Below are positions 24,177-41,809 of a DNA stretch of 64,000 nucleotides, piece after piece; position 1 is the first letter of the stretch, and each line of letters opens with the position of its first letter. The notes under the pieces were generated by a model, which saw nothing but the letters and a program-made list of their open reading frames with translations, was not told where the DNA came from and did not search any database. The translations under genes and the position numbers were made by a program. This DNA is from Cellulomonas hominis (GTDB taxonomy: Bacteria > Actinomycetota > Actinomycetes > Actinomycetales > Cellulomonadaceae): positions 62,001-126,000 of the forward strand of contig NZ_CABEGA010000018.1 in the NCBI RefSeq assembly GCF_901521055.1. Direction: 5' to 3'.

Positions 24177-24193
24177 TCACCCGGCAGGGGTGA
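24177..24193. promoter_or_regulatory. island palindrome, site a
   Basis: TCACCC-GGCAG-GGGTGA, perfect 6-base arms. Its centre is 82 bases upstream of the SHOCT gene start (minus strand) and 136 before the ATPase start. Centre-to-centre distance to site b is 39 bases. Confidence 0.7.
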
Positions 24194-24215
24194 GTCGCCG
24201 GTCGGAGCAGGGCGT

Positions 24216-24232
24216 TCACCCGGGACGGGTGA
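24216..24232. promoter_or_regulatory. island palindrome, site b
   Basis: TCACCC-GGGAC-GGGTGA, perfect 6-base arms. Its centre is 97 bases upstream of the P-type ATPase ATG. Confidence 0.7.
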
Positions 24233-24320
24233 GGTCGCCGCACCCGCGCGGACGGACGTTGGAGGCACAGGACGGGCGGACGGGGCGCCTGCAGGTGCCC
24301 GCGCGAGGACGGGTGAGGAC

Positions 24321-27032
24321 ATGACGACCACGCAGGCGCCCGCACGGGAGTGGTACGCGGCCACGGTCGGCCAGGTGTGCGAGGCGTTCGCGGTGGACCC
24401 CGCGCGCGGCCTCAGCGCCGCGGAGGCGGCCGCGCGCCTGCAGACCTACGGGCCGAACGCGCTCGCGGCGGAGCGGCCGGAGCCGGCGTGGCGGGCGTTC
24501 CTGCGCCAGTACGCCGACCTCATGCAGCTGGTGCTCGTCGGTGCGGCGGTGGTCAGCGTCGTCGCGCTCCAGGACCTCTCCACCGGACTGGTCGTCCTCG
24601 GGCTGACGGTGCTGAACGCGCTCATGGGGCTGCACCAGGAGGGCAAGGCCGCCGAGAGCGTGGCGTCGCTGCGCAAGATGCTGGTGATGACCGCGCGCGT
24701 GCGGCGGGACGGCGAGCTCCTGCAGATCCCGGCGGAGCAGCTGGTGCCGGGCGACGTCGTCGGCTTCGAGGCGGGGGACAAGGTCCCCGCCGACGGCCGG
24801 CTGGTCCTGGCCGCGTCGCTGGAGATCGAGGAGGCCGGCCTCACGGGGGAGAGCACGCCGGTCCCGAAGTCCGTGGACCCCGTGGCGGGGGTGGACGTCC
24901 CGCTGGGCGACCGGGTCTGCGTGGCGTACATGAACTCGCAGGTGACGCGCGGGCGCGGGGAGATGGTCGTCACCGGGACCGGGATGGGCACCGAGGTCGG
25001 GCACATCTCGGGGATGCTCAGCGCCGTCGAGCAGGACGAGACGCCGCTGACCCGGCAGCTCGACCGGCTGACCGTGGTGATCACGCTGATGGCGGCCGTC
25101 GCGCTGGTCGCGATCGTGCTGCTCGGCCTGGCCCGCGGCGAGGACTTCGACACCCTGTTCCTGGTCGGGATCAGCCTGGCGATCGCGGCGATCCCGACCG
25201 GCCTGCCCGCCGTGGTCACGATGCTGCTGTCCCTCGGCACCCGCGACCTCGCGGGCGCCGGAGCGATCGTCAAGCGGCTGCGGTCCGTCGAGACGCTGGG
25301 GGCGACGTCGGCGATCTGCTCGGACAAGACCGGCACCCTCACGCTGAACCAGATGACGGCGCGCCGGCTGGTGCTCGCCGGCCGCCGGTTCGGCGTCGAC
25401 GGCGAGGGGTACGCGACGACCGGGCGGATCCTCGCGACCGGCGGCGGGCCCGACGTGCGCCTGGAGCCGTTCCTGCTGCCGATGGCGCTCGCGAGCGACG
25501 CGGTGATCCGGGACGGCGCCTGCGTCGGCGACCCGACCGAGGGGGCCCTGGTGGTCCTGGCGGCGAAGGGCGGCATCGACGTCGAGGAGACCCGGCTCGC
25601 GTTCCCCCGGGTGGCGGAGGTGCCGTTCGACGCGACGTACAAGCTGATGGCCACGTTCCACCGGGTGGTGGTCGACGGACGCCCGGTGGTCCGGTGCTAC
25701 GTCAAGGGCGCCCCGGACGTGCTGCTCGCGCGGTCGGTCCGGTACCGGGACGCGGACGGCGTGAACCGGCCGCTCGACGACGGGCGGCAGCGGGTCGTGG
25801 CGGAGAACGACGCGCTCGCCGGGGAGGGCATGCGGGTGCTGGCGCTGGCCGAGCGGGACCTCGAGCCCGCCGCGCTGGAGGGCGCCGACCTGCTCGACCT
25901 GGTGACGGGGCTGGACCTGCTGGCGCTGGTGGGCATCGTCGACCCGGCGCGCCGCGAGGCCGCCGCTGCGATCGCGGAGTGCCGCGCGGCGGGCATCCGC
26001 GTGCGGATGATCACGGGCGACCACGCCACGACGGCCGCGGCGATCGCCGCGCAGCTCGGCATCGAGGGGCGCGCGCTCACCGGCGCGGAGTTCGCCGCGA
26101 TGCCCGACGACATGCTCGACCGGGAGGTCGACGGGATCGGCGTCGTCGCGCGGGTCGCCCCGGAGGACAAGGTGCGGCTGGTGGACGTGCTGAAGCGCCG
26201 CGGCGAGGTCGTGGCGATGACCGGCGACGGGGTGAACGACGCGCCGGCGCTCACCCGGGCCGACATCGGCGTCGCGATGGGGATCACGGGCACCGAGGTC
26301 ACCAAGGACGCCGCCGAGATGATCCTCACGGACGACAACTTCGCCACGATCGTCACCGCGGTCGAGCGCGGCCGCGGGCTCTACGACAACCTGATGAAGT
26401 ACGTCCGGTTCCAGATGGTCGTGCTGGTCGGGTTCATCCTCACGTTCGTCGGCGCCGGGATCTTCGCCGTCGCGGACGGCGTCCCGCTGTCACCCCTGCA
26501 GATCCTGTGGGTCAACTTCGCCATCGACGTCGTCCTCGCCGTGGGGCTCGGGTTCGACGCCCCGGCGGGCGACCTCATGCAGCGCCGGCCGCGTCCCCCC
26601 GACGCCCCGGTGCTCGGCCGCGCGCTCGGCGCCCGGCTGGCGCTCGACGGGCTGCTCATCGCCGTGGGGACCCTGCTCGTCGTCGCGTGGGCGGAGCCGC
26701 GGTACGGCCTGCTCACGGCGACCACGATGGGCCTGACGGCCGCCGCCCTCACGCACGTCGTCGCGGCGGCGGAGTGGCGCGATCTGCGCCGCAGCGTCAT
26801 CAGCCACGAGACCGTCGCGAACGGCCGGTTCGTGACCCTCGTCCTGGTCGTGCTCGGGCTGACGGTGCTCGTGACGTCGCTGCCGATCCTGCAGCGGCTG
26901 TTCGGGACCACGGACCTCGATCCCGGCCAGTGGGGGGCGTGCCTGCTGGTCGCCGCCGGCTACCTGGTCGTCGCGGAGCTCACGCGGGCCGTCGTCCGCG
27001 CCGTGGGCCGGTCGGCGGACCGCACGCGCTGA
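24321..27032 (+). CDS. P-type (PII-like) cation-transporting ATPase
   Basis: The 903-residue pump has an N-terminal cation-ATPase domain (GLSAAEAAARLQTYGPNAL), an actuator TGES, the phosphorylation site D335KTGTLT, MITGDHATT and the hinge TGDGVNDAPAL, and about ten membrane helices. This layout is that of PII ATPases such as bacterial Ca2+ pumps or the mycobacterial CtpF group. The helix-4 ion-binding motif reads IPTGLP (about residues 291-296), with Thr in place of the Glu of PEGLP, so ion specificity may differ. The ATG follows GGTGAGGAC. Two island palindromes lie upstream. It is monocistronic, with a terminator after it. Confidence 0.92.
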   Translation: MTTTQAPAREWYAATVGQVCEAFAVDPARGLSAAEAAARLQTYGPNALAAERPEPAWRAFLRQYADLMQLVLVGAAVVSVVALQDLSTGLVVLGLTVLNALMGLHQEGKAAESVASLRKMLVMTARVRRDGELLQIPAEQLVPGDVVGFEAGDKVPADGRLVLAASLEIEEAGLTGESTPVPKSVDPVAGVDVPLGDRVCVAYMNSQVTRGRGEMVVTGTGMGTEVGHISGMLSAVEQDETPLTRQLDRLTVVITLMAAVALVAIVLLGLARGEDFDTLFLVGISLAIAAIPTGLPAVVTMLLSLGTRDLAGAGAIVKRLRSVETLGATSAICSDKTGTLTLNQMTARRLVLAGRRFGVDGEGYATTGRILATGGGPDVRLEPFLLPMALASDAVIRDGACVGDPTEGALVVLAAKGGIDVEETRLAFPRVAEVPFDATYKLMATFHRVVVDGRPVVRCYVKGAPDVLLARSVRYRDADGVNRPLDDGRQRVVAENDALAGEGMRVLALAERDLEPAALEGADLLDLVTGLDLLALVGIVDPARREAAAAIAECRAAGIRVRMITGDHATTAAAIAAQLGIEGRALTGAEFAAMPDDMLDREVDGIGVVARVAPEDKVRLVDVLKRRGEVVAMTGDGVNDAPALTRADIGVAMGITGTEVTKDAAEMILTDDNFATIVTAVERGRGLYDNLMKYVRFQMVVLVGFILTFVGAGIFAVADGVPLSPLQILWVNFAIDVVLAVGLGFDAPAGDLMQRRPRPPDAPVLGRALGARLALDGLLIAVGTLLVVAWAEPRYGLLTATTMGLTAAALTHVVAAAEWRDLRRSVISHETVANGRFVTLVLVVLGLTVLVTSLPILQRLFGTTDLDPGQWGACLLVAAGYLVVAELTRAVVRAVGRSADRTR

Positions 27033-27125
27033 GAGGCGCCGACAGCCGGCCGGTGGCACCACGCGCCGGCGGGCGCGTCCACCCGGCGCGTCCATCCCGG
27101 CCCGTCCCCGCGCACGAGAGAGGCC

Positions 27126-27162
27126 GCGCCCGTCCGGTACGACCCGGCACGGACGCGGCCCC
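27126..27162 (+). terminator. hairpin after P-type ATPase
   Basis: GGCCGCGCCCGT pairs with ACGGACGCGGCC (one mismatch) in the gap between the ATPase and the convergent SHOCT gene at 27178. It could act in both directions. Confidence 0.6.
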
Positions 27163-27177
27163 TCGGGCACGCGGTCG

Positions 27178-27474: not shown

Positions 27475-27527
27475 GTCGGTCCTCCTTCGTGTCGTACGTG
27501 CGTGGGTGGTGCCGACGGGCACCGGCG

Positions 27528-27983
27528 TCAGACGCTGTCCGCGGCGTCGAGCGCGGCGAGCAGCGCCTGCACCGGGATGCGCCCGCTCGCGACGAGCTGG
27601 CCCCCGCCGTGCCGCAGCGCGGTCGCGAAGGGCGCGGCCCAGGTGTTCTCGTAGATGAGGACACCCGCGGCGGAGCCGGGCGCCAGCGCGCCGGCCGCCT
27701 CGGCGAGGTCGTCGTCCCCGAGCAGGCCGGAGGAGGCGCCCTCGAGGATCGTCAGGTCGAAGTCGCCTGTCGCATCCAGGTCGCGCAGGTCCAGCCCCGC
27801 GACCGTCCCGTCCTCCGCCTTCGCCACGAACGCCAGGTCGAGCACGCGCACGATGCCGCGCTCCACCAGGTCCATCAGCAGCGGGAACGCGGTCCCGTCC
27901 AGGCGGTTCTCCGGGAACTCGATCACCACGTAGTCGACTGGCCCCATCTCCTGGATCTCGAGCTCTTCGCCCCTGGTTTCCAC
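27528..27983 (-). CDS. DUF6325-like protein
   Basis: The 151-residue protein begins around GPVDYVVIEFPENRLDGTAFPLLMDLVERGIVRVLDLAFVAKAEDG, the pattern I associate with DUF6325. The N-terminal half of DUF1269 proteins is similar: a strand, a helix with LVERGIV, then DLAFV. A Gly-rich middle (GALAPGSAAGVLIYENTW) and a C-terminal helix (PVQALLAALDAA) follow. There are no clear membrane helices. I use the GTG at 27983, with GGGAG upstream. Function is unknown; the resemblance to DUF1269 suggests the island repeatedly uses one fold. Confidence 0.7.
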   Translation of the reverse strand: METRGEELEIQEMGPVDYVVIEFPENRLDGTAFPLLMDLVERGIVRVLDLAFVAKAEDGTVAGLDLRDLDATGDFDLTILEGASSGLLGDDDLAEAAGALAPGSAAGVLIYENTWAAPFATALRHGGGQLVASGRIPVQALLAALDAADSV

Positions 27984-28076
27984 GGCTGCTCCCTCGCCGT
28001 CCTGGCGACCCGTGCGGGCCGGGGACGCGCACCGCGTCCCGAGATCCACGGTCCAGCCCGGCCAGCCCGCGGGGCA

Positions 28077-28093
28077 TCACCCCCGCCGGGTAC
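28077..28093. promoter_or_regulatory. island palindrome, site c (weaker)
   Basis: TCACCC-CCGCC-GGGTAC, right arm imperfect. Its centre is 54 bases before the ATG of the first LAL regulator and 102 before the DUF6325 start on the other strand. Confidence 0.5.
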
Positions 28094-28124
28094 CCGGGGG
28101 CCTCGATCCCGGGCGAGGGCTGGG

Positions 28125-28130: not shown

Positions 28131-28138
28131 TTGCCCGC

Positions 28139-30805
28139 ATGGGCTCCCCGGTGCGGGGCTCCGTCCGGGAACTGCGCGAGCCGCCTTCGGGAGGGGGAGG
28201 CTCGCGGCGCCCGGCCGGGACCACGGAGCAACGCCTCCTGAGACCCCCACCTGCGCGCACCGTGCAGCGGCCGGGCGTCGACCGCCTGCTCGACGGCGAC
28301 CCCCAGGACCGGCTCACCGTCGTCGCGGCGGGTGCCGGCTGGGGCAAGTCCACCGCGGTCGCGTCCTGGGCGGCTGCGCAGCCCGGCCCGGTCGGCTGGA
28401 TCGCGCTCGACCCGCGGGACACGGTGCCCCAGGCGCTCGCGAGCCGGGTGCTCGAGGCCCTGCGCAGCAGCGGTGCGGTCCCGGCCGACCACGACCTGGC
28501 CCGGCTGCGGGTGCCGCCGACCAGCACCCCGGGCTTCGTCGCCCGCTGGGTGCGCGGCCTGGTGTCGCTGCCCGAGCCGGCGACCCTCGTCCTGGACGAC
28601 CTCGACGTGGTGCGCCACCGCAACGTCGTGCAGACGGTGCGGGACCTGCTCGCGGCGGACGTGCCGCTGCGCCTGGTGCTGCTGAGCCGCGCCGAGCCCT
28701 CGGTCGAGCGCCGGACCGCCACCCGGGTCGCCGCGGAGGACCTGGCGTTCACGGCGGCGGAGGTCCGCTCCCTGGCGGAGCTGGAGGGGATCGAGGTCTC
28801 GCCCCACGACGCCGGGCTGATACTCGAGCGCACCCGCGGCTGGCCGACCGGCGTCCGGATCGCCCTCAGCCGCCTGGCCCGCCTGCAGGCCGGCGACGTC
28901 GAGGCGGCGCTCGCGGACGCGCTCAACGACGACCGGGCGGTCGCCGACTACCTGGTCGACGAGGTCGTGGACCGCCAGGCGCCCGCGGTCCGGTCGTTCC
29001 TGCTGCGCTCCTCCGTCGTTCCGACGTTCACGCCCGAGCTCGCCCGCGCCCTGAGCCCGAGCGCCGCCCCCGCCCGGCTGCACGAGGCGCTGGCGGCCGC
29101 CCACGACTTCGTCGCCCCCGTGCAGGCCGACCGGGCCGCGCTGCGCTACCACCCGCTCCTGCGCGAGATCCTGCACACGACCCTGCGGGTCCGGGACCCC
29201 GCGGGGCACCAGGACGCGCACGCCTGCGCCGCCCGGTGGCTGCTGCGGCACGGGAGTCCCGTCGCCGCGCTGGACCACGCGACGGAGGCGGAGCACTGGG
29301 AGCTGCTCGGGCGGGTGCTGGCCGAGGCGGCGGCACCGCTCCTGGTCGGCCCCGGCCGCGAGGCGGTGCGCGAGGTGCTCGCGCAGCTGCCCTACGACGA
29401 GCTGCCGGCCGCCGAGTGGACCGAGCTGTGCGCGGCCGCGCTGGCGCTGGTGGACCGCGCCTACCCGGCGTGCCGGTCCCACGTGGCGCGCGCGCGGGCG
29501 GTGCGCGCCCGCGTCGACGACGTGCCCACGGCCGCCGACGTGCTGACGGACCTGTTCGACGCCGCGTCGGCGCGCGGGCTGGGGGACGTCACCGTGCAGG
29601 AGCGCGCGGCCACCTCGGCGCTCGACGCGTTGGCGCGGGTCGAGTGGCCCTTCCCGGCGTACGGCGGGTACCTGCGCAGCGCGCACGAGCTCCGTGGCTC
29701 CGCGCTGCTCTGGCACGGGGACGCGGCCGGCGCGCGCCGCGAGCTCGCCGCCTCCGTGGCGGAGGAGCCGGACGTCGTCGACTTCACGTCGCTCAGCGCG
29801 CGCGCCGCGCTCGCGCTCGCGCACGCGGCGCTCGGCGGTCTGGACGCGGCCGAGCGGGAGGCGCAGGCCGCGGTCGCGCTCGCCGCAGCCTCCGGCTGGA
29901 CGTCCTACACCTACGTCCGTCCCGCGTACGCCGCGCTCGCCTGGGTCGCGCTCCTGCGCGGTCGGTGGGGGGACGCCGACCGCGCCGTCGCCTACGGGTT
30001 CGCGGCGTGCGACGCCGGGGCGGACCCCACGTCCCTCGCGGCGCTGCAGGCGCTCCAGGTGCTGACCGCGGTCTCCCGCGGGCGGGTGCGTGCGGCGCGT
30101 GCGGCGTCCGACGGCGGCCGCGGCACCGGGCCGGCGGCGCCCCTGGTGGCCGACCTGCGGCTGCGGGGCGAGGTCGAGGTGGAGGGCGTGACGGGGGAGG
30201 GCCCGGCCCAGGGCGCCGGGGTGGTGCGGATCTCGTCGCCGCTGGAGGCGCTGACCGCCGGGCGGCGCTCGCTCGCGCGGGCCGACCTCGGTGGCGCGCG
30301 CCGGCACGCGCGGGTCGCGGCCGGGTGGGCCGCCGACCTCGGGGACCCCCTCACCGAGACGGAGGCGTGCCTCCTGCTGGCCGAGGTGGCCGAGCAGCGG
30401 CACGCGGCGGGCCTCGCCGAGGACCTGGTGCGGCGGGCGATGTCCGTGGCGTCGCCCGAGCGGCTGCTCCGGCCGTTCCTCTGCGGCGCCGGGCCGGGCG
30501 CCCGCGCGGCCCTCGGCCGGGTGCTGCCCGGCCGCACGGACCCCCTGGCGCGGGATGTGGCCGGGCGCCTGTCCACCCCGGCGCCCGTGACGGAGCCGGA
30601 GCCGCTGCCCGCCGTGCTCACCGACCGGGAGCTCACCGTGCTCGCCGCCCTGCCCAGCATGGCGAGCAACACGGAGATCGCCGAGGACCTGGTGGTCTCG
30701 GTCAACACGGTCAAGGCGCACCTGAAGTCGCTGTACCGCAAGCTCGACGTCCCGACGCGGCGCGCCGCCGTGGCCCGGGGGCGCGAGCTCGGCCTGCTGC
30801 CCTGA
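28139..30805 (+). CDS. MalT/LAL-type LuxR transcriptional regulator 1
   Basis: This 888-residue regulator has an N-terminal ATPase of the STAND/MalT type (Walker A GAGWGKST at about residues 65-72, Walker B-like TLVLDDLDVV, and RGWPTGVRIAL). A long helical TPR-like middle follows, then a C-terminal LuxR helix-turn-helix (LTDRELTVLAAL, TEIAEDLVVSVNTVKAHLKS, about residues 826-885). Proteins of this class multimerise on ATP and an inducer, then activate transcription. The inducer is unknown. A second paralogue is at 37878. The gene is convergent with the membrane gene at 30821. Confidence 0.9.
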   Translation: MGSPVRGSVRELREPPSGGGGSRRPAGTTEQRLLRPPPARTVQRPGVDRLLDGDPQDRLTVVAAGAGWGKSTAVASWAAAQPGPVGWIALDPRDTVPQALASRVLEALRSSGAVPADHDLARLRVPPTSTPGFVARWVRGLVSLPEPATLVLDDLDVVRHRNVVQTVRDLLAADVPLRLVLLSRAEPSVERRTATRVAAEDLAFTAAEVRSLAELEGIEVSPHDAGLILERTRGWPTGVRIALSRLARLQAGDVEAALADALNDDRAVADYLVDEVVDRQAPAVRSFLLRSSVVPTFTPELARALSPSAAPARLHEALAAAHDFVAPVQADRAALRYHPLLREILHTTLRVRDPAGHQDAHACAARWLLRHGSPVAALDHATEAEHWELLGRVLAEAAAPLLVGPGREAVREVLAQLPYDELPAAEWTELCAAALALVDRAYPACRSHVARARAVRARVDDVPTAADVLTDLFDAASARGLGDVTVQERAATSALDALARVEWPFPAYGGYLRSAHELRGSALLWHGDAAGARRELAASVAEEPDVVDFTSLSARAALALAHAALGGLDAAEREAQAAVALAAASGWTSYTYVRPAYAALAWVALLRGRWGDADRAVAYGFAACDAGADPTSLAALQALQVLTAVSRGRVRAARAASDGGRGTGPAAPLVADLRLRGEVEVEGVTGEGPAQGAGVVRISSPLEALTAGRRSLARADLGGARRHARVAAGWAADLGDPLTETEACLLLAEVAEQRHAAGLAEDLVRRAMSVASPERLLRPFLCGAGPGARAALGRVLPGRTDPLARDVAGRLSTPAPVTEPEPLPAVLTDRELTVLAALPSMASNTEIAEDLVVSVNTVKAHLKSLYRKLDVPTRRAAVARGRELGLLP

Positions 30806-31330: not shown

Positions 31331-31813
31331 TCAGCCGAACGTCTCGAGCAGCAGGTCGCGCTCCGCCTGGGTGAGGTTCGTCGACACGAGCCGGGAGCCG
31401 AGCCCGTGGAACCGCTCGCCGAGCCGGTCCATGTCGGCGTCCTGGGTCACCGTGAGCAGGAGGGACGTGCCCTCGGTGGTCTCGTCCTTGAGCCGGGTGA
31501 GGTCGTCCTCGTTGATCCCGACGCCCTCGACGGACTTCGCGAGCGCCCCGATCCCGGCACCCGCGGCCGCGCCGAGCAGCGGCGCGAAGAACAGCCCGCC
31601 GACGAGGAGGCCCCACAGGGCGCCCCAGCCCGCCTTGCGCTTGCCCTCGTCGTGCTGGTGGTGCAGCTCGGGACGCTTCTCGCCCACGGGCCAGGACACC
31701 ACCGCTGAGTCGACGACCTTCACCAGGCCGTCGTCCTGGGCGGCGTGCAGGGCGCCGAGAGCCTTGTCCGCTCCCTCGGGGGTGTCGAACTTCCACGCGG
31801 TGAACGTCGTCAT
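31331..31813 (-). CDS. DUF1269 protein 1
   Basis: The 160-residue protein follows the DUF1269 layout: an N-terminal strand-helix part (TTFTAWKFDTPEGADKALGAL), a basic linker, a central Gly/Ala-rich hydrophobic hairpin (GALWGLLVGGLFFAPLLGAAAGAGIGAL) that could insert in the membrane, and a C-terminal part with TSLLLTV and LVSTNLTQAERDLL. The family is of unknown function. I use the second ATG (31813), placed 6 bases after GAGGAG; the ATG at 31819 abuts the ribosome binding site. It is the most diverged of three DUF1269 genes here. Site d is 70 bases upstream. Confidence 0.88.
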   Translation of the reverse strand: MTTFTAWKFDTPEGADKALGALHAAQDDGLVKVVDSAVVSWPVGEKRPELHHQHDEGKRKAGWGALWGLLVGGLFFAPLLGAAAGAGIGALAKSVEGVGINEDDLTRLKDETTEGTSLLLTVTQDADMDRLGERFHGLGSRLVSTNLTQAERDLLLETFG

Positions 31814-31874
31814 GGCCATCTCCTCGTTCGGTGCCGGCGGATGTCACTGTCCCGCCGGAGGCCCGGCGTCCGGC

Positions 31875-31891
31875 TCACCCGCGACGGGTGA
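31875..31891. promoter_or_regulatory. island palindrome, site d
   Basis: TCACCC-GCGAC-GGGTGA, perfect arms; even the spacer ends pair (G...C). Its centre is 70 bases before the start of DUF1269 gene 1 on the minus strand. Confidence 0.7.
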
Positions 31892-31928: not shown

Positions 31929-32426
31929 TCAGGCGGTCTCGCTGAACGCGTCGCGCAGTCGGGCCTCGTCCTCGTCGGACAGGTTCGTCTGGATCAGCTC
32001 GCCGTGGACGCCCTGCTCGCTCAGCGTGCCGAAGACCCTGTCGCCCACGGCGCCGCTGGACAGGAGGAAGAGCGCGGACGTGCCGGGGGTGACCTTGCTG
32101 CGGACGGAGGCGATGAAGTCGTCGTCGATGCCGACGTCGGCCAGCGCCCCGCCGAGCGCGCCCGCGGCCGCGCCGATCGCCGCGCCGAGCAGCGGGATGA
32201 AGAAGAGCAGGCCGAACAGCATGCCCCAGAAGGTGCCCCCGAGGGCCCCCGCGGCGGTGAGGCTGTTCGACTGCCGGGTCTTCGGCTTCTTCTTGCCGAG
32301 CTCCCACGACACGGTGGCCGCGTCGTGCACCTGGATGAGCTGCTGCTTCTGCAGGTCGAGCAGGGCGGCCTCCGCCCGCTCCGCCCCGTCGGGGGTCTCG
32401 AACTTCCACACGCTGAGAGTGGCCAC
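31929..32426 (-). CDS. DUF1269 protein 2
   Basis: The 165-residue DUF1269 protein begins MATLSVWKFETPDGAERAE and has the central hairpin GTFWGMLFGLLFFIPLLGAAIGAAAGALGGAL interrupted by no charged residue (residues about 64-96). A C-terminal part with TSALFLLSS and LIQTNLSDEDEA follows. By eye it is about 80 percent identical, without gaps, to the gene at 41192, so the two are recent paralogues. The GTG start has AAGGAG 7 bases upstream. It is monocistronic, and site e is 73 bases upstream. Confidence 0.88.
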   Translation of the reverse strand: MATLSVWKFETPDGAERAEAALLDLQKQQLIQVHDAATVSWELGKKKPKTRQSNSLTAAGALGGTFWGMLFGLLFFIPLLGAAIGAAAGALGGALADVGIDDDFIASVRSKVTPGTSALFLLSSGAVGDRVFGTLSEQGVHGELIQTNLSDEDEARLRDAFSETA

Positions 32427-32490
32427 CGTGGTCTCCTTGTCCGGATCGCGACTGACGCCACCAGCGTCGTCGCCCTCCGGCGTCCCCGCC

Positions 32491-32507
32491 TCACCCGTAC
32501 CGGATGT
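32491..32507. promoter_or_regulatory. island palindrome, site e
   Basis: TCACCC-GTACC-GGATGT; one arm matches fully, the other 4 of 6. Its centre is 73 bases before the DUF1269 gene 2 start (minus strand). Confidence 0.55.
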
Positions 32508-34275: not shown

Positions 34276-34292
34276 TCACCCGCGGCGCATGA
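34276..34292. promoter_or_regulatory. island palindrome, site f
   Basis: TCACCC-GCGGC-GCATGA; the right arm has one change. It is centred 61 bases before the Abhydrolase_9 gene (minus) and 74 before the small gene (plus), so one site may serve both. Confidence 0.6.
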
Positions 34293-34357
34293 GGACTCCG
34301 GGAGCGCCGGGGCGGCACGCTGGCCGTAGGACGACGCGCACGCTCACGGGAGCAGCC

Positions 34358-34564
34358 ATGCTGTACCACATCCGGGTCGTCGGACCGGAGCACGAGCTCG
34401 ACGACCTGCGCGACTTCGCGGACATCGTCTCCGCCCCGACGCAGGACGGCGCGATCCTCTCGTGCCAGGTGCCGGACCACTCGGGGCTCACCGGTGTGGT
34501 GGCGCTGCTCGGGGACCTGGGCATCGACATCGCCGAGCTGCGCCGGGTGCCCGAGCTGCGCTGA
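34358..34564 (+). CDS. small uncharacterised protein, ACT-like pattern
   Basis: The 68-residue protein (starts MLYHIRVVGPEHELDDL, ends ELRRVPELR) alternates strands and helices in the order strand-helix-strand-strand-helix-strand, as in ferredoxin-like or ACT folds. I do not recognise a named family. The ATG has GGGAG 6-7 bases upstream. Its stop is 2 bases from the stop of the convergent SulP gene. Short length and good spacing support a real gene; site f upstream ties it to the island. Confidence 0.65.
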   Translation: MLYHIRVVGPEHELDDLRDFADIVSAPTQDGAILSCQVPDHSGLTGVVALLGDLGIDIAELRRVPELR

Positions 34565-34566
34565 CC

Positions 34567-36273
34567 TTAGTCCTCGGGCCGCTCCGCCGTGACGGCCTCG
34601 TCGACGGTCCGGTACCGCTCCGGCGGCGGGCCGTCTCCGTCGGCGGCGACGGCCCGCAGCATGTCCCGGACCTGCCCCACGTCCTCGGCGACGACGAGCC
34701 GGGCGCCCGCGCGCCGCAGGTCCCGCCCCAGCAGCGCGAGCATCTCCGCCGCCGCGCTGTCCACGAACGGGACGGTCCGCGCGTCCAGGACGACGAGCCG
34801 CGGCTGCTGCTCGCGCGCGAGCGACCGGACGGCGGAGCGCACCGTGTCGGCGTTCGCGAAGAACAGGCCCGCGTCGACCCGCACGACGAGCACGCCCGGC
34901 ACCGGTGCCCCCGGCGCGCGCCCGAGGGCGACCCGCCGCGCGACGTCCACCCAGGTGCCGTGCTCGTCCCGCACCAGCACGGCGACGTGCGGCCGCGACG
35001 CCCGCGCCAGCAGCAGGAACAGCGACAGCACCACGCCGACGACGAGGCCCGGCAGCGTGTCGAGGACCAGCACGCCGAGCAGCGCGGCCAGGGCGGCGTA
35101 CGCGTCGTACCGCGCGGCGTTGCCGTACAGGCCGCGCCCCGTCGCCCCCGCCAGCGCCCACAGCCGGCGCAGTGCGGCCACGTCGACCAGCTCCACGACC
35201 GCCGCGATGACGACCGCCGCCAACGCAGCCTCGGGCAGCGGCTCGAACAACGGCGTGAGCAGCAGCAGGGTCGCGAGCGTGAGCGCCGCCGCGGTCATCC
35301 CGGACAGCTGGCTGCGCGCGCCGGCGCCGCCGTTGACGGCCGTCTTGGACAGGCTGCCGTTGACGACCATCCCCGACACCAGCCCCGAGCCCACGTTCGC
35401 CAGGCCCATGCCCAGCAGCTCGCGGTCCGGGTCGATGTCGTACCCGGCCCGGTCGGCGTAGGCCCGGGCCGCGCCGAGCGCCTCCGCGAAGCCGACGAGC
35501 ACCACGCCCGCCGCCGGTCCGACGAGCTCGCCGTAGGTCGACAGGTCGAGGTCGGGCAGGCCCAGCGGCGGCAGCCCCGGCTCGATGGGTCCGACGACCT
35601 GCACGCCCGCGTCCTGCAGGCCGAGGGTCAGCACGGCGACGACCCCGAGGGCCACGACCACCAGGGCGCCCGGCACCCGGGGGGCGTAGCGGCGCAGCAG
35701 GAGCACGACCGCGAGGCACGCGGCGCCCAGCACCGTCGTGACGACGTCGAGGTCGGGCAGGCCGCGCACGACGGCGACGGACTTCTCCAGGAAGCTCCCC
35801 TCGCCCTTCTCGATCCCGAGCAGCGCGGGCACCTGGCCGACGATGATGGTCAGCGCCAGCCCGACGATGAAGCCCTTGAGCACCGGCGCGGAGATGAACG
35901 CGGCCAGGAACCCCGCCCGCAGCAGGGCCGCGAGCAGGCAGAGCAGGCCCGTGACGAGCGCGGTCGCGGAGGTCAGGGCGAGGTAGGCGGCGTCGTCCCC
36001 CGGACGGAAGGCCGCCACCACGCCGGCGGACAGCGCGGCCGTCGCGGACATGGGCCCGACCACCAGGTGCCGCGAGCTGCCGGCGGCCGCGTACAGCACG
36101 AGCGACGGCACGGCCGCGTACAGCCCCACCACGGGGTCCACCCCGGCGATCGTCGCGTAGGCCAGCGACTCGGGGACGAGCACCGCCCAGACCGTCAGCC
36201 CCGCGAGGAGGTCGCGGGAGAGCCACGCGCGGCGGTAGCCGGCGAGGGAGGGGAACACCCGGGGTCGCACCAT
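34567..36273 (-). CDS. SulP-family anion transporter with STAS domain
   Basis: The 568-residue transporter has ten or more membrane helices with SulP hallmarks (VPESLAYATIAGVDPVVGLYAA near the N-terminus; LVVGPMSATAALSAG; GLVSGMVVNGSLSKTAVN) and a C-terminal STAS domain from about residue 445 (VLVVRVDAGLFFANAD; PFVDSAAAEMLALL). SulP proteins move sulfate, bicarbonate or other anions; the substrate here cannot be told. The ATG follows AAGGGA and starts 10 bases after the stop of the DUF1254-type gene, so the two form one operon downstream of site g. Confidence 0.9.
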   Translation of the reverse strand: MVRPRVFPSLAGYRRAWLSRDLLAGLTVWAVLVPESLAYATIAGVDPVVGLYAAVPSLVLYAAAGSSRHLVVGPMSATAALSAGVVAAFRPGDDAAYLALTSATALVTGLLCLLAALLRAGFLAAFISAPVLKGFIVGLALTIIVGQVPALLGIEKGEGSFLEKSVAVVRGLPDLDVVTTVLGAACLAVVLLLRRYAPRVPGALVVVALGVVAVLTLGLQDAGVQVVGPIEPGLPPLGLPDLDLSTYGELVGPAAGVVLVGFAEALGAARAYADRAGYDIDPDRELLGMGLANVGSGLVSGMVVNGSLSKTAVNGGAGARSQLSGMTAAALTLATLLLLTPLFEPLPEAALAAVVIAAVVELVDVAALRRLWALAGATGRGLYGNAARYDAYAALAALLGVLVLDTLPGLVVGVVLSLFLLLARASRPHVAVLVRDEHGTWVDVARRVALGRAPGAPVPGVLVVRVDAGLFFANADTVRSAVRSLAREQQPRLVVLDARTVPFVDSAAAEMLALLGRDLRRAGARLVVAEDVGQVRDMLRAVAADGDGPPPERYRTVDEAVTAERPED

Positions 36274-36283: not shown

Positions 36284-37603
36284 TCAGGGCAGCGCGCGGA
36301 GCACGGGCGGGACCCACTCGCCGTGCACCGCGGCGGGCTCGGGGGCGTACAGGCGGGCGGTCACCCGGAACGCGCCCGGTGACGTGCGGACCCAGCGGGC
36401 GTGCCCGCCGGCGTCCGCGGGCGGGTGCGGCTGGAGGGCGAACGTCGTCGGCCCGGGCGGGTGCGCGCCCTGCTGGTCCGGCGGGTCCGATCCGCCGCCC
36501 ACCCACCCGTGCGGCCCCGGCCCGAGCGGCGCACCGGACGGTTCGGCGTGCACGGCCAGCGACCACCCGAGGCGCGCCGGTGGCGGTCGCCGGAAGGTCA
36601 GGGAGTACGGCCGGTCCCCGTGGAGCGGCTCGCCGTCGAGGTCGCGCCAGCGCACCGTCAGCGTCTCCTGCGGGCTCGGCGCGTGCAGCTCACGAGCGGC
36701 GGAGACCGCGCGGCCGAGGCGGGCGCCGTCCGTGCCGTCGGTGTCGTCGGCGACGCACGCCGTCGTGTGCGGGCTGGGCTGCCGGGCGAGCGCGTCCTGG
36801 AGGACCGCGGCGCCCAGTGCCACGCCCCGGGCCACGAGGGCGTGCTCGGCCCGGGAGCCGGGGACGGTGCTGCCGCGGGGCGCGCCCAGCCGTGCGGCGC
36901 GGGCGAGGAGCTCCCGGTCCGCGCGGCCCGGGTCGCCGCCCAGGCCGGTCGCGAACGCCAGGTAGTCCAGGAACCCCGTGCCGCGCGCGCGGTCCTCGTC
37001 CCACGGCAGCCAGGCGGGCGGGGGGACGGGGCGCGGCGGAGCGCCCCCGGTGAGCTCGTGCAGCGGGGCCAGCCGCAGGGCGCCCCGCAGCGCCTCCGCC
37101 CCCGTCGCCCCGCCGGGGCCGGGCACCGCGACCCGGCCGAGCAGCCGCACGATGTCGGATCGGGTGTGCAGCGCGCCCGTCAGCCCCGGCGGCAGGGTCC
37201 CGCTCCACCGCGGTCCGACCACGGCCCACGTGGCGGCGTGCTGCCCGGTGCGCACGACCCCGAGCCGCCCGACCTCGCGCGCGAACAGGTCCGTCAGCTC
37301 GACGCCTACGTACCGGCCCTCGGGGACCGCGGGGTGGCTCAGGACCACGGGCTCGGCGCGCAGGTCCAGCCACGCCTCGCAGAGGAGCACCCCGGGGTCG
37401 GCCCAGGGGGGCGCACCGCCGCGGGCCGACGGCGACGGCGTGTGCGTCAGCGCGCCGAGCGGGCGGGAGCCCGCCACCACCTGCTCGTGCAGCAGCGCGT
37501 ACGTCATCAGCACCGGCCACGCGAGCACGTAGGCGTCCGCGACCGTCCTGACCGTGTCCGCGTCCGCGTCGGCCCGGCCAGGGCCGGACGGGCGTGCGCC
37601 CAT
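36284..37603 (-). CDS. DUF1254/DUF1214 protein 1
   Basis: The 439-residue protein begins with a DUF1254-type part (VADAYVLAWPVLMTYALLHEQV; PWADPGVLLCEAWLDLRAEPVVL) and ends with a DUF1214-type beta-rich part (YSLTFRRPPPARLGWSLAV; FRVTARLYAPEPA). The family is widespread and without settled function. It lacks the signal peptide seen in many members. The start could be ATG 37603 or GTG 37612, both near purine-rich sequence; I chose the ATG. A second, better-preserved paralogue is at 41890. It heads an operon with the SulP gene. Confidence 0.8.
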   Translation of the reverse strand: MGARPSGPGRADADADTVRTVADAYVLAWPVLMTYALLHEQVVAGSRPLGALTHTPSPSARGGAPPWADPGVLLCEAWLDLRAEPVVLSHPAVPEGRYVGVELTDLFAREVGRLGVVRTGQHAATWAVVGPRWSGTLPPGLTGALHTRSDIVRLLGRVAVPGPGGATGAEALRGALRLAPLHELTGGAPPRPVPPPAWLPWDEDRARGTGFLDYLAFATGLGGDPGRADRELLARAARLGAPRGSTVPGSRAEHALVARGVALGAAVLQDALARQPSPHTTACVADDTDGTDGARLGRAVSAARELHAPSPQETLTVRWRDLDGEPLHGDRPYSLTFRRPPPARLGWSLAVHAEPSGAPLGPGPHGWVGGGSDPPDQQGAHPPGPTTFALQPHPPADAGGHARWVRTSPGAFRVTARLYAPEPAAVHGEWVPPVLRALP

Positions 37604-37676: not shown

Positions 37677-37693
37677 TCACCCGGTGTGCATGA
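37677..37693. promoter_or_regulatory. island palindrome, site g
   Basis: TCACCC-GGTGT-GCATGA. Its centre is 82 bases before the DUF1254/DUF1214 gene 1 ATG (minus strand). Confidence 0.6.
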
Positions 37694-37765
37694 CCGGCGT
37701 GCGGACGGCGGGCAGGAGCGGCACCACGATCCAGAGGTCCGGTCGACCCCCGTCGTGGGCGCGCC

Positions 37766-37782
37766 TCACCCGCGACGGATGA
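37766..37782. promoter_or_regulatory. island palindrome, site h
   Basis: TCACCC-GCGAC-GGATGA. Its centre is 104 bases before the second LAL regulator ATG. A further half site, GGATGAGG, lies at 37797-37804. Confidence 0.65.
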
Positions 37783-37842
37783 GGGCGGGCGGCGCCGGAT
37801 GAGGCGACGATGCACGAGGGTGACGCCCGCCGGCAACGGCGT

Positions 37843-37848: not shown

Positions 37849-37877
37849 GGGCCCGACACGCAGGGGGAGCGTGACTC

Positions 37878-40487
37878 ATGGTCGCAGGCAGCCGTGCTCC
37901 GGGACGGGGCGACCCGATCGCGCCCCCGCGCACCCCCGCCGGCCGGATCCGGGTCCCGGTGCTCCCGCGCGGCGTCCTCCCCCGCACGCGGTGCGTCGAC
38001 GCGCTCGCCGCGGCCGTCGCCGGGCACCGGCTGGTGCTGGTCAGCGCGCCCGCCGGCTACGGCAAGACCACGCTCCTGGTGCAGTGGGCCGCGACGGCCG
38101 CCCGCCCGGTCGCCTGGGTCTCCCTCGACTCGCTGGACGACGACCCGGCGCGGCTGACGCGCGTGCTGCAGGACTCCGTCGCGCAGGCGACGGGCCGCGC
38201 CGGCGCCCCGTGGGACGGGACGACGGAGGGCCCGACGCCGCGCACGGTGGCGCAGGGCGTGGACGGCCTCGCCGCCCGCCTCGACGGGCTGGAGGGGCCG
38301 GACCCCGCGCCCGTGGTCGTGCTCGACGACATCCACCTGCTGTCGGTGCAGACGGCGCAGCAGGTCCTCGGCCCCCTCCTGCGCTACCCGGGGGCCAGCT
38401 TCGTGCTCGCGGGCCGCTACGACGCCGTCGTCCCGCTGAACCGGCTCCGGCTCAGCGGGGAGCTCGCCGAGCTGCGCGAGGACGCCCTGGCCTTCACCTC
38501 GACGGAGGTCGCCGACCTCGCGCGGACGCTCGGCGACGAGGCGGCGCGGGACCGGTCGCAGGCCCTGTGGGAGCTCACCGGCGGCTGGCCCGTCGCGGTC
38601 CGGCTGGCCATCGCGGCCGGTGTGCTGGGCGGCTCCGGCGCGCCCATGCGCGAGCTGCGCGACCGGGACGTGCCGATCACCGGGTACCTGGTGGAGGAGG
38701 TGATCGACGCGCTGCCGGCGGAGCTCGCGGACTTCGTCCTGCGGGCCAGCCTGGTCGACGCGATCGACCCGGCGCTCGCCGAGGCGATCGCCCCGCACGG
38801 GGCCCGGCTGCTGGACGAGTGCGTCGCGCGGGGGCTGTTCCTGGCGCAGGTCGCGGACGAGGACGGCGGCGACCCCGTCTACCGCTGGCACACGCTCGTC
38901 GCCGCCCACGCGGCCGCCGTGCTGGCGCGGCGCGACCCGGCCGCGGTGCGCGACACGCACCGGGTCGTCGCCGAGCACGTCGCCGCGCGCGACCCGGCCG
39001 CCGCCATCACCCACGCCCTGGAGGGCGCCGCCCCCGACCTCGCGGCGTCGATCCTGGGGGAGCGGTGGCCGGACCTGCTGGTCCGCGGCGACGTGACGCT
39101 GATCGACGGGCTCCGCTCGGCGCTGCCCGCACCGCAGCGGCACGAGCCGGACGTCCTGCTGGCGCTGTCCGCGGCCCGGGCCTTCGAGCCGGCGGACCCG
39201 GGCGTCGAGGACGCCGACCGGCAGCCCGCCGCGGTCACCGCCCTGGTGCACGCGCTCATGGCCCCCGGCCGGCCCGCGCTGGAGGAGGCGATCCGGCGAG
39301 GCCGCGCGGCGCTCGCGGACGTCGACCTCGACGACGGCACGCGGGCGCTGGGGCTGTACCTGCTCGGTCGCGCGGAGCTGCAGCGGTACTCGAGCGACGC
39401 CGCCGCCGGTCCCCGGCTCGCCCACGGCGCGGTGCTCGCCGCGCAGCGCGGCTGGGTCGCGCTCGAGCTGGGCTGCCGCGCGGAGGAGAGCCTCGCGACC
39501 GCGCACCGGGGCGAGCTGCTGGCCGCACGAGCCCGGGCACAGGACGTGCTCGCGGCGGCGGCGGCGCGGGGGTGGGACGGCACGGGGATCACCGCGTCCG
39601 CGCACCTGGCCTGCGGGCTGGTCGCCTACTGGCGCGACGAGCTGGACGTCGCGCACGAGCACCTCGGCGCGGCGGTCGTCGCCGCCGGGCGGGCGCGGCC
39701 CGAGGTCGCGGTGCACGCCGCCGGCGTGCTGGCGATCACCTGCATGGCCCGCGGTGACGCCGCCGGGCTCGCGCGCGCCCGGGCCGTCACGGACGCGCCC
39801 TGGACGGACGCCGACGCACCGGAGCACGTGCGCGCCTTCCGGCAGTTCCTGACCGCGATCCAGCTGGACCTCGAGCGCCGCCCGGACGCGGCGCTCGCCC
39901 TCGTCGACGAGCGCACCGCGGCGTTCGGCGACCCGCTCGCCCTGACCTGGCAGAGCGACCTGCGACGCCGCGTCGGCGACCGCGAGGGCTCGTGGCGGGC
40001 CCTGCGCGCCGCGATGAGCGCGACGGATGCGGTCGCGCACCCGCTGCCGCAGACGCTGGTCGCCGTCCGCTCGGCGGCGGCCCTGCTGCACGAGGACGAG
40101 CACGCCGCCCACGAGGCGCTCGAGGGCGCGCTGGAGGCCGCCGCGCCGCAGGGCGTCGTCCGGCCGCTGCGGGACCGCGCGGCGAGCCTGCACCCGCTGC
40201 TGTCGGACCATCTGGAGTGGGGGAGCGCGCACGAGGCCCTGGTCGCGCGGCTGCTGGTCGCGGAGGAGGACGCGCCCGCCGCGCGCGCCTCCGCCTGGGA
40301 GCTCACGCCCCGCGAGCACGACGTGCTCGCCTGCCTGCGGTCGTCGATGACCTCCGACGAGATCGCCGGCTCCCTGTTCCTGTCCGTCAACACGATCAAG
40401 ACCCACATGCGCTCGATCTACCGCAAGCTCGGTGCCGACGGCCGGCGGGCCGCGGTGCGGGAGGCGGTGCACCGCGGGCTGCTGTGA
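37878..40487 (+). CDS. MalT/LAL-type LuxR transcriptional regulator 2
   Basis: The 869-residue regulator has the same plan as the one at 28139. An N-terminal STAND ATPase carries Walker A APAGYGKTT (about residues 57-65) and Walker B-like PVVVLDDIHLL, with TGGWPVAVRLAI. A helical TPR-like middle follows, and a C-terminal LuxR helix-turn-helix (LTPREHDVLACL; EIAGSLFLSVNTIKTHMRSIYRKL). The recognition-helix region VNTIKTHMRSIYRKL is close to VNTVKAHLKSLYRKL of regulator 1, so both may bind related DNA. The site h palindrome lies upstream, allowing autoregulation. It is convergent with the GAP-family gene, with a 6-base gap. Confidence 0.9.
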   Translation: MVAGSRAPGRGDPIAPPRTPAGRIRVPVLPRGVLPRTRCVDALAAAVAGHRLVLVSAPAGYGKTTLLVQWAATAARPVAWVSLDSLDDDPARLTRVLQDSVAQATGRAGAPWDGTTEGPTPRTVAQGVDGLAARLDGLEGPDPAPVVVLDDIHLLSVQTAQQVLGPLLRYPGASFVLAGRYDAVVPLNRLRLSGELAELREDALAFTSTEVADLARTLGDEAARDRSQALWELTGGWPVAVRLAIAAGVLGGSGAPMRELRDRDVPITGYLVEEVIDALPAELADFVLRASLVDAIDPALAEAIAPHGARLLDECVARGLFLAQVADEDGGDPVYRWHTLVAAHAAAVLARRDPAAVRDTHRVVAEHVAARDPAAAITHALEGAAPDLAASILGERWPDLLVRGDVTLIDGLRSALPAPQRHEPDVLLALSAARAFEPADPGVEDADRQPAAVTALVHALMAPGRPALEEAIRRGRAALADVDLDDGTRALGLYLLGRAELQRYSSDAAAGPRLAHGAVLAAQRGWVALELGCRAEESLATAHRGELLAARARAQDVLAAAAARGWDGTGITASAHLACGLVAYWRDELDVAHEHLGAAVVAAGRARPEVAVHAAGVLAITCMARGDAAGLARARAVTDAPWTDADAPEHVRAFRQFLTAIQLDLERRPDAALALVDERTAAFGDPLALTWQSDLRRRVGDREGSWRALRAAMSATDAVAHPLPQTLVAVRSAAALLHEDEHAAHEALEGALEAAAPQGVVRPLRDRAASLHPLLSDHLEWGSAHEALVARLLVAEEDAPAARASAWELTPREHDVLACLRSSMTSDEIAGSLFLSVNTIKTHMRSIYRKLGADGRRAAVREAVHRGLL

Positions 40488-40493
40488 GCGGGC

Positions 40494-41162
40494 TCAGAGG
40501 GCGGCGATCCCGTCGCCGAGCATCTTCGCCCCGATCACCAGCAGCAGGACCGCCATGATCGCCGCGTTGTTCTGGACCATCCACGTCCTCAGCTCGTCGA
40601 GCAGCGCGGCTGCCCGCGGTCCGCTGGAGACGTACACCACGAGCGGCGCCGCGACCCCAAGCGAGGCGACGACCACGAACACGGCCAGGGCGCCGAGCTG
40701 CGCCGCCGTGTCGGACGTCGCCGTCGCGATGGCCGCACCGCCGGAGACGACCAGCAGCAGGTTCTTCGGGTTCACCGCGCCGAGCAGCACCGCGAGCCCG
40801 AACGCCTTCACCGGGGTGAACGTGTCGATCGCCCGCATCCAGCCCGGCGCGGGCGGGGTCGCGCCGCCGCGGGGCCGCCCGCGCCAGCTGCGGAGGGCGA
40901 GCAGCAGCAGCACGGCGCCGAGCACCAGCTTGACGACCGCCGCCCACGCGGGGGTGTCGCCGTCGTCAGCCGTCGCCGCGCCGGCCAGGAGCACGACGAC
41001 CGCCCCGAGGGCCGCGATCCCGAGCACCCAGCCCGCCAGGAACGCACCGGCGTTCGACCGCGCGCGTGGCGTCAGCAGCATCAGCACGACCGCCACGATC
41101 GGCATCGGGCTGATCATCACACCCACCGCGACGGGCAGTGACTGCCCGACGGCCTCGCCCAC
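40494..41162 (-). CDS. GAP-family membrane protein (Sap/LysE-like)
   Basis: The 222-residue protein has six membrane helices and the pattern of the GAP / sulfolipid-addressing family: an N-terminal VGVMISPMPIVAVVLML helix, the loop FTPVKAFGLAVLLGAVNPKN and a last helix VLLLVIGAKMLGDGI. Some mycobacterial members help export surface glycolipids; the substrate here is unknown. The GTG at 41162 follows GGGGGAGG by 6 bases. It lies 29 bases after the stop of DUF1269 gene 3 on the same strand, so the two are probably cotranscribed from sites i and j. Confidence 0.82.
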   Translation of the reverse strand: MGEAVGQSLPVAVGVMISPMPIVAVVLMLLTPRARSNAGAFLAGWVLGIAALGAVVVLLAGAATADDGDTPAWAAVVKLVLGAVLLLLALRSWRGRPRGGATPPAPGWMRAIDTFTPVKAFGLAVLLGAVNPKNLLLVVSGGAAIATATSDTAAQLGALAVFVVVASLGVAAPLVVYVSSGPRAAALLDELRTWMVQNNAAIMAVLLLVIGAKMLGDGIAAL

Positions 41163-41191
41163 GGCGACCTCCCCCGGTCCCGCCCGTCGCC

Positions 41192-41689
41192 TCAGACGTT
41201 CTCCTCGAACGCCTCCCGCAGCTGCGCCTCGTCGGCCTCGGACAGGTTGGTCTGCAGCAGCTCGCCGTGGATGCCCTGGTCCTTCAGGGCCCCCACGACC
41301 TTGTCCGGCACCGCGTCGGAGGACAGCAGGAACAGCGCCGACGTGCCGGGGGTGACCTTGCTGCGCACGGAGTCGATGAACTCGTCGTCGATGCCGACGT
41401 CCGTCAGGGCCCCGCCGAGCGCGCCCGCGGCCGCGCCGATCGCCGCGCCCAGCAGGGGCACGAAGAACAGCAGGCCGAACAGCATCCCCCAGAACGTGCC
41501 GCCCAGGGCGCCGGCCGCCGCGAGGTTGTTGGTCTGGTGCGTCCTCGGCTTCTTCTTCCCGGGCTCCCACGACACCGTCGCGGCGTCGTGCACCTGGATG
41601 AGCTCCTGCTTCTGCAGGGCGATGAGCGCCTGCTCCGCCCGGTCGGCCCCCTCCGGGGTCTCGAACTTCCACACGCTGAGAGTGGCCAC
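41192..41689 (-). CDS. DUF1269 protein 3
   Basis: The 165-residue DUF1269 protein is collinear with the gene at 31929 and about 80 percent identical by eye. It has the N-terminal VATLSVWKFETPEGADRAE, central Gly/Ala hydrophobic hairpin (residues about 64-96) and C-terminal LLQTNLSEADEAQLREAF. The GTG at 41689 is preceded by AAGGAG. The longer frame to 41734 would place the ribosome binding site inside the coding region. It is followed by the GAP-family gene. Site i is 72 bases upstream, close to the distance seen at the other two DUF1269 genes (70 and 73). Confidence 0.88.
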   Translation of the reverse strand: MATLSVWKFETPEGADRAEQALIALQKQELIQVHDAATVSWEPGKKKPRTHQTNNLAAAGALGGTFWGMLFGLLFFVPLLGAAIGAAAGALGGALTDVGIDDEFIDSVRSKVTPGTSALFLLSSDAVPDKVVGALKDQGIHGELLQTNLSEADEAQLREAFEENV

Positions 41690-41752
41690 GATCTGCTCCT
41701 TCGTCCGGCCGGATGACGGGCTCAGCGTGCCCACGGGCAGCGCCGGTGCACC

Positions 41753-41769
41753 TCATCCGGGTGGGATGA
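41753..41769. promoter_or_regulatory. island palindrome, site i
   Basis: TCATCC-GGGTG-GGATGA, perfect arms with the C/T variant on both sides. Its centre is 72 bases before DUF1269 gene 3 (minus). A related element with a 4-base spacer, TCGTCC-GGCC-GGATGA, lies at 41701-41716. Confidence 0.65.
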
Positions 41770-41792
41770 CCGGCCGCCGACGGGCCTCGGGC

Positions 41793-41809
41793 TCGTCCGC
41801 GCCGGATGA
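41793..41809. promoter_or_regulatory. island palindrome, site j
   Basis: TCGTCC-GCGCC-GGATGA. Its centre is 89 bases before the DUF1254/DUF1214 gene 2 ATG and 40 bases from the centre of site i. Confidence 0.55.

Follow-up and report, generated by a model that had tools for sequence, protein, structure and literature searches.

A 17-base inverted repeat at the promoters of a Cellulomonas hominis gene island, probably the DNA box of a MalT-type LAL regulator

We analysed 64,000 bases of Cellulomonas hominis (contig NZ_CABEGA010000018.1, positions 62,001 to 126,000; hereafter the window), in which a 17-base inverted repeat recurs between 24177 and 41809 at the promoters of a gene island that encodes two regulators of the LAL family. 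An earlier note on this DNA had listed ten such sites; all ten were recovered at the same coordinates, and every one is intergenic according to independent gene calls, made with a simple codon-usage caller. The island encodes a SHOCT-like protein (23717..24103, minus strand; 25.5 bits, under the curated cut-off of 27), a cation P-type ATPase (24321..27032, plus), a DUF6325 protein (27528..27983, minus), three DUF1269 proteins (31331..31813, 31929..32426 and 41192..41689, all minus), a small protein of 68 residues with no Pfam match (34358-34564) and two DUF1254/DUF1214 proteins (36284..37603, minus; 41890..43221, plus). The regulators are LAL1 (28139..30805, plus; 888 residues from this start) and the MalT-like LAL2 (37878..40487, plus; 869 residues from this start), which we propose as the activator.

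Boxes in the window were assigned to genes by a -10-like hexamer, xAnnnT, at offsets +30 to +32 from the box centre when read toward the gene. Box 1 (TCACCCGGCAGGGGTGA, 24177..24193, minus) is followed by GACCGT at 24150-24155 (offset +30) and faces the SHOCT gene at 23717-24103, and box 2 (TCACCCGGGACGGGTGA, 24216..24232, plus), with GACGTT at 24255-24260, faces the P-type ATPase gene. The degenerate box 3 (28077..28093, minus) departs from the motif at two positions (TCACCC..GGGTAC); its promoter-proximal half is perfect on the minus strand, and with GACCGT at 28048-28053 it faces the DUF6325 gene and then a SHOCT gene at 27178. Box 4 (TCACCCGCGACGGGTGA, 31875..31891, minus; GACAGT at 31846-31851), box 5 (32491..32507, minus; one mismatch in the distal arm; GACGCT at 32463-32468) and box 9 (TCATCCGGGTGGGATGA, 41753..41769, minus; CACGCT at 41724-41729) lie 70, 73 and 72 bases, respectively, before the DUF1269 genes at 31331, 31929 and 41192, the last of which is followed by an SfLAP gene (40494-41162). 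Box 6 (34276..34292, plus; one mismatch in the proximal arm), with CACGCT at 34316-34321, stands 74 bases before the small gene; box 8 (TCACCCGCGACGGATGA, 37766..37782, plus), with GACGAT at 37806-37811, faces LAL2; and box 10 (41793..41809, plus; one mismatch in the distal arm), with CAGCGT at 41832-41837, precedes the DUF1254/DUF1214 gene at 41890 by 89 bases. Box 7 (37677..37693, minus) lies 82 bases before the other DUF1254/DUF1214 gene, behind which a SulP gene follows (34567-36273). Where a divergent gap of the window holds two boxes, there is one box per promoter. Overall, the hexamer is found for nine of the ten boxes in the gene-facing orientation versus none of ten in the opposite one.

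These assignments retain most of the targets named in the earlier note, namely the P-type ATPase, the SHOCT gene, the DUF6325-SHOCT operon, the three DUF1269 genes (at the distances given there), the small gene and LAL2. Of its two DUF1254 genes, the one at 41890 stands, since the hexamer fits, and the one at 36284 is faced by box 7 without a hexamer. Of its remaining two targets, LAL1 falls away and Abhydrolase_9 probably does so too. LAL1 was rejected as a target of 28077 because the half-site on its side is broken, with the -10-like hexamer pointing instead to DUF6325; Abhydrolase_9, proposed for 34276, has no hexamer in its direction, but the arm on that side is perfect and a weak second promoter is possible. 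Neither gene retains a convincing promoter box. Because the -10 rule gives 28077 to the DUF6325-SHOCT operon and pairs 34276 with the small gene at 34358, LAL2 is the only one of the two regulators that looks autoregulated.

The box consensus is TCAYCC-GNNNC-GGRTGA, so that the repeated palindrome of the earlier note stands and its wording, TCACCC-N5-GGGTGA, is broadened. When up to three mismatches are allowed, the strict word shows no enrichment in the window (39 sites, 49.18 expected), and counts were therefore based on the degenerate word TCAYCC-N5-GGRTGA with at most one mismatch, with the reversed word as a control. The window contains nine such sites versus 0.40 expected, a number reached in 0 of 100 shuffles, and all nine lie within 24177-41809, with none in the remainder. 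Five are exact (24177, 24216, 31875, 37766 and 41753) and four carry one mismatch (32491, 34276, 37677 and 41793). Among 120 distinct letter orders of the arms, the true order ranked top in the island (9 sites; mean 0.39). A scan of the genome (4.07 Mb, 105 contigs) recovered six exact sites, five of them in the island, and 35 at up to one mismatch, nine of them in the island, versus two for the reversed word. The GGGTGA arm is more frequent here than GGATGA, and the TCATCC/GGATGA form occurs exactly only at 41753. Reading toward the gene, TGAGG continues eight of the ten window boxes, in agreement with the GAGG noted earlier behind the right arm; in the wider set of gene-facing rows described below, GG follows the box in 32 of 102, a weaker trend than in the window.

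Within the island, exact arms are separated by a spacer of five bases in five cases and by one of four in none. Across spacers of 0 to 12 in the intergenic DNA of 24 box-bearing loci (defined below), spacer 5 was found 38 times, spacer 8 once and all others never; these loci had been picked by their spacer-5 sites, so that only the absence of other spacers is the fair part of this test. Over the whole genome, exact TCACCC..GGGTGA pairs are equally frequent with spacers 4 and 5 (4 each of 15).

Promoter geometry was examined in sites aligned toward their downstream genes. The initial 112 rows were reduced to 103 by removing near-identical ones and to 102 by omitting one too close to the start; they represent 78 sites, some read both ways. 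The hexamer xAnnnT lies at +31 from the box centre in 30 rows and at +32 in 27, with both in none, giving 57 of 102 rows at this pair of offsets; other adjacent pairs have a mean of 3.0 and a maximum of 6, and other single offsets a mean of 1.6 rows and at most 6. Without the window's own 15 rows, the count is 50 of 87. In a second set, built from 41 loci that had been located solely through the 17-mer, with one site per locus, and partly dependent on the first (in at least one case, a site at L039 apparently repeats that at L059), the hexamer is present in 18 of 33 gene-facing versus 2 of 49 other orientations, and in 16 of 23 gene-facing orientations among near relatives at the order level. 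A centre 31-32 bases before the -10 hexamer places the box about 43 bases before the predicted transcription start. By its sequence context, the box sits where the -35 element belongs, which is the geometry of an activator box.

Conservation was assessed with the DUF1269 protein at 41192..41689 as query, for which 80 of 92 confirmed orthologue loci were kept. The box, at up to one mismatch, lies within 250 bases upstream of the DUF1269 orthologue in 23 of the 80 loci versus 16 of 800 random 250-base stretches from the same loci. The positive loci come from Cellulomonas (one labelled Cellulosimicrobium), Actinomycetospora, Nakamurella, Kribbella, Gordonia, Nocardioides, Ornithinimicrobium, Myceligenerans, Dactylosporangium, Actinokineospora and two Propionibacteriaceae bins. 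The 80 loci together hold 101 sites, of which 93 are intergenic and 8 coding, with intergenic DNA making up 21% of the sequence and no site for the reversed word. At least one intergenic site occurs in 24 of the 80 loci, which we call box-bearing; the other 56 served as the comparison set. In three loci of relatives, the boxed gap next to the DUF1269 gene is also flanked by a gene of similar size (L058 2985-4088, L059 5141-6244, L063 3-1061); the one in L058, the only one of the three that was typed, is of the histidine-kinase type.

LAL2 matches the GerE profile through its C-terminal helix-turn-helix (51.3 bits; cut-off 23.5), and falls under the cut-off for AAA_16 (30.5 bits; cut-off 32.6) and TPR_MalT (23.1 bits; cut-off 45). 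Against Escherichia coli MalT it aligns at 26% over roughly 350-390 N-terminal residues and at 42% over the C-terminal 78 residues, and the two helix-turn-helix sequences (NTIKTHMRSIYRKLG in LAL2, TTIKTHIRNLYQKLG in MalT) have in common the recognition-helix pattern TIKTHxRxxYxKLG. LAL1 also has a C-terminal GerE domain; its two ends likewise align with E. coli MalT, and its helix-turn-helix shares 52% of 61 residues with that of LAL2. A third LAL2-like protein is encoded on contig C9 of the same genome.

Presence of the box goes together with presence of such regulators. A LAL of at least 600 residues occurs in 12 of the 24 box-bearing loci versus 1 of the 56 others, and a blast comparison using proteins of this genome as queries (E up to 1e-8) detects a LAL in 13 of 24 versus 0 of 56; at a looser cut, a LAL2-like match also appears in three of the 56 (L064, L066 and L102). 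For small GerE proteins, the counts are 7 of 24 versus 7 of 56. In a class-wide sample of 394 evenly drawn genomes, a LAL2-like protein (E<1e-15) is present in 43 of 52 genomes with at least two strict boxes versus 73 of 342 others (Fisher p 9e-18), and in 26 of 29 with at least three boxes. Among 58 near relatives, such a protein is present in 17 of 19 genomes with a box versus 14 of 39 without (p 0.00017). LAL2 orthologues directly adjoin boxed DUF1269 genes in four loci (L057, L058, L059 and L063), and three further box-bearing loci (L067, L079 and L091) encode three LALs each.

The predicted regulon extends beyond the island, so that the earlier claim of an island-wide regulon is supported in substance and too narrow in extent. 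Outside the island, the genome holds 26 sites at up to one mismatch; of the 23 looked at in context, 8 are coding, 8 are intergenic but have no gene-facing xAnnnT, and the other 7 are intergenic and have one. Behind the seven lie genes for an MFS transporter, an amino-acid permease, two sulfatases, a DUF7144 protein, an alpha/beta hydrolase and a choloylglycine-hydrolase-type protein. The box of the MFS gene also has a hexamer toward a divergent ThrE exporter gene, and the MFS gene is followed by one for an M24 peptidase. This locus on contig C29 (MFS, M24 aminopeptidase and amino-acid permease, with divergent ThrE) carries two boxes with fitting -10-like hexamers (G000:C29:159337 and 162042; L016 6338 and 9043) and resembles annotations of an Actinoplanes island treated below. 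The sulfatase-gene boxes are at G000:C1:126716 (L017 5717) and G000:C40:5126 (L029 4127), and sulfatase genes are boxed in other genera too.

Some target families recur elsewhere. From 84 boxed genes of other loci, 54 were chosen for a profile scan, omitting most DUF1269 copies and near-duplicates; the first 25 of 42 families include AI-2E transporters (6), SulP (5), sulfatase (5) and DUF7144 (4), together with one alkylsulfatase and one FGE-sulfatase match. In the blast comparison of the 24 box-bearing with the 56 other loci, sulfatase matches number 5 versus 0, DUF7144 9 versus 4, the small 68-residue protein 5 versus 0 and DUF1254 4 versus 2, but the counts are equal for SulP (8 versus 8), SfLAP (4 versus 4) and DUF6325 (2 versus 2). 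Four regions picked for clustered boxes or LALs (in genomes G216, G047, G063 and G064) all encode LAL, DUF6325 and SfLAP; SulP and sulfatase are found in G216, G047 and G063, DUF7144 and SHOCT in G216, G047 and G064, and DUF1269 in G216 and G047. We treat the link between this regulon and sulfatases as a lead, not a result.

Taken together, we consider it likely that the 17-base palindrome serves a LAL of the MalT type as its DNA box, with LAL2 as the foremost candidate. The box, its conservation, its -10 spacing and its genetic linkage to LALs were computed directly here; binding and activation by a LAL we infer from Actinoplanes sp. SE50/110. A MalT-type LAL is a STAND-type ATPase with a C-terminal LuxR-type helix-turn-helix; once activated, it would bind the two inverted GGRTGA half-sites, 11 bases apart from centre to centre. 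The box would replace the -35 element, and the bound protein would recruit RNA polymerase by class II activation. LAL2, which has its own box, would probably activate itself, and the predicted regulon would comprise the P-type ATPase, SHOCT, DUF6325, the three DUF1269 genes, the small gene, the DUF1254 genes with SulP, SfLAP and, outside the island, a few further loci. The shared operator tied to a LAL regulator, as proposed in the earlier note, is supported by conservation, the near-fixed -10 spacing, LAL linkage and the Actinoplanes precedent.

Several observations weigh against this reading. Box 7 has no xAnnnT in the expected place, and the 23 outside sites include the eight coding and the eight hexamer-less intergenic ones. 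Among the class-wide loci of the second set, many of whose listed sites belong to one family-level group, the hexamer is found in just 2 of 10 gene-facing orientations, so that the 17-mer by itself does not always denote this promoter type. This is the chief exception; otherwise the motif, which we regard as real, behaved as a promoter element would in the tests made. Half of the box-bearing loci (12 of 24) lack a LAL of at least 600 residues in the fetched stretch, some of these stretches being short; among the 58 near relatives, a strict box is missing from 14 of the 31 genomes that encode a LAL2-like protein, and such a protein from 2 of the 19 that have a box; and the class-wide association is uncorrected for genome size or descent. 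None of the Streptomyces and Oerskovia DUF1269 loci in the orthologue scan carries the box, and a DUF1269 gene of Streptomyces griseus has been assigned to a different, T-rich motif (PMC8914203). A set of sites in the family-level group f36 (L199-L210, near position 1501; in L204 at 1339) also has the form TCACCC-N5-GGGTGA, and several of these are alike between genomes. Mostly without a gene-facing hexamer, they are probably something else, perhaps another element that shares these arms.

Since the island holds two LALs and contig C9 a third, another of them could read the box. LAL1 lies among the boxes and has a helix-turn-helix similar to that of LAL2, and the loci with three LALs each would suit a mixture of readers. 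It is LAL2, however, that has a box with a fitting -10 hexamer, LAL1 having none, and it is LAL2 orthologues that stand beside boxed DUF1269 genes; the 20 kb around the C9 protein (L223) contain no box at up to one mismatch, and the second LAL of Actinoplanes had slight effects only, according to unpublished data that its authors cite (PMC7567727). We regard reading by LAL1, by the C9 protein or by a mixture of LALs, in place of LAL2 alone, as rather unlikely.

A reader of another class would be a BldM-like response regulator of the NarL type, with the LALs as bystanders; BldM is a response regulator with a LuxR-type helix-turn-helix. The BldM homodimer box has the same half-sites, as far as the consulted part of its description goes (PMC4125116), the genome as a whole holds as many exact pairs with spacer 4 as with spacer 5, and small GerE proteins are found at some box-bearing loci. 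An operator of the BldM type was nevertheless rejected on the spacer, with no exact spacer-4 site in the island or in the box-bearing intergenic DNA; moreover, the Actinoplanes LAL box, whose regulator was tested genetically, has spacer 5 (PMC7567727), and the box is linked more strongly to large LALs than to small GerE proteins. A NarL-type reader is accordingly improbable. Palindromic operators are often repressor sites, but the box precedes the -10-like hexamer by a near-constant 31-32 bases, at -35 and without overlap, and the Actinoplanes regulator is described as an activator, which makes a repressor operator very improbable. Chance palindromes in GC-rich intergenic DNA would account for the lack of enrichment of the strict word at up to three mismatches; the excess at up to one mismatch, the conservation across genera, the exclusive spacer and the phasing with the -10 hexamer leave this a negligible prospect.

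Beyond the identification of the box, we tentatively suggest, as a possible but doubtful generalization, that it marks a widespread, unnamed LAL regulon of Actinomycetes, in which one STAND receptor would govern a recurring, probably envelope-related gene set (DUF1269, SHOCT, DUF6325, DUF7144, DUF1254, SfLAP and AI-2E transporters) together with a sulfur side (sulfatases, alkylsulfatases, a formylglycine-generating-enzyme-like protein and SulP transporters), the signal being sulfate esters or envelope stress, not maltose. We found no description of the regulon in Cellulomonas in the literature searched, a search that most subscription journals lay outside. With genes of the little-studied DUF1269, SHOCT, DUF6325, DUF7144 and DUF1254 families under one promoter rule in this genome and some relatives, it becomes directly testable which signal these bacteria perceive through MalT-like LALs, and the rule itself (box, 22-23 bases, xAnnnT) lets regulon members be proposed from sequence alone.

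Two neighbouring features of the window complete the picture of the locus. A large cellulase-type protein with GH5, CBM6 and F5/8 type C domains (43771-46779) directly adjoins the island. A perfect palindrome at 47141 (TCACCTTGGCAAGGTGA) was rejected as part of the regulon; it lies inside a tRNA-Gly gene (47110-47182, minus strand), which tRNA-Val and tRNA-Cys genes adjoin.

Among known systems, the BldM Group I box of Streptomyces venezuelae (TCACcCgnncGgGTGA; PMC4125116, consulted in part) shares the half-site TCACCC/GGGTGA with the box described here, but it is a 16-bp element with a spacer of 4, read by a response regulator in Streptomyces, unlike the spacer of 5 and the proposed LAL here. 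The MalT box of E. coli and Klebsiella, quoted as GGGGA(T/G)GAGG in PMC7567727, is similar in its GGATGA core, in the GG behind it (8 of 10 window boxes), in its location in the -35 region and in the recognition helix of its regulator. It differs in that the sites here form an inverted pair with a fixed spacer, mostly as GGGTGA, and no maltose gene was noticed among their targets.

The closest counterpart is the MRLGR island of Actinoplanes sp. SE50/110, known to us from the accessible text of PMC7567727, in which MalT, a LAL regulator, activates genes through the box TCATCC-5nt-GGATGA. That island comprises 51 genes, including two MalT-like LALs; deleting malT lowered the expression of 42 genes, and overexpressing it raised that of 39; the box lies in the -35 region of 17 start sites, with its 3' end 34.4 +/- 1.0 bases from the start, and related regions are reported from four other Micromonosporaceae. 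The link between regulator and box was tested there genetically, and that text contains no direct binding assay. Both systems have a 17-bp inverted repeat with a 5-base spacer at the -35 position (predicted here), a clustered island mostly of genes of unclear role with two MalT-like LALs inside, and the regulator's own operon among the affected genes there and the boxed genes here; the distance to the start, inferred in our case, also agrees with the Actinoplanes measurement. The C29 locus, matched by annotation only, recalls the ThrE, M24 aminopeptidase/aminopeptidase P and amino-acid permease entries of the Actinoplanes Table 1. The island here carries DUF1269, SHOCT, DUF6325, DUF1254, SulP, SfLAP and P-type ATPase genes, a possible difference in content. 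Its arms, unlike those of Actinoplanes, are of the C variant, and its host lies outside the Micromonosporaceae. A box of the MalT-LAL kind was known already from Actinoplanes; the present analysis adds its C/T variant, the breadth of its hosts, its target families and its promoter geometry.

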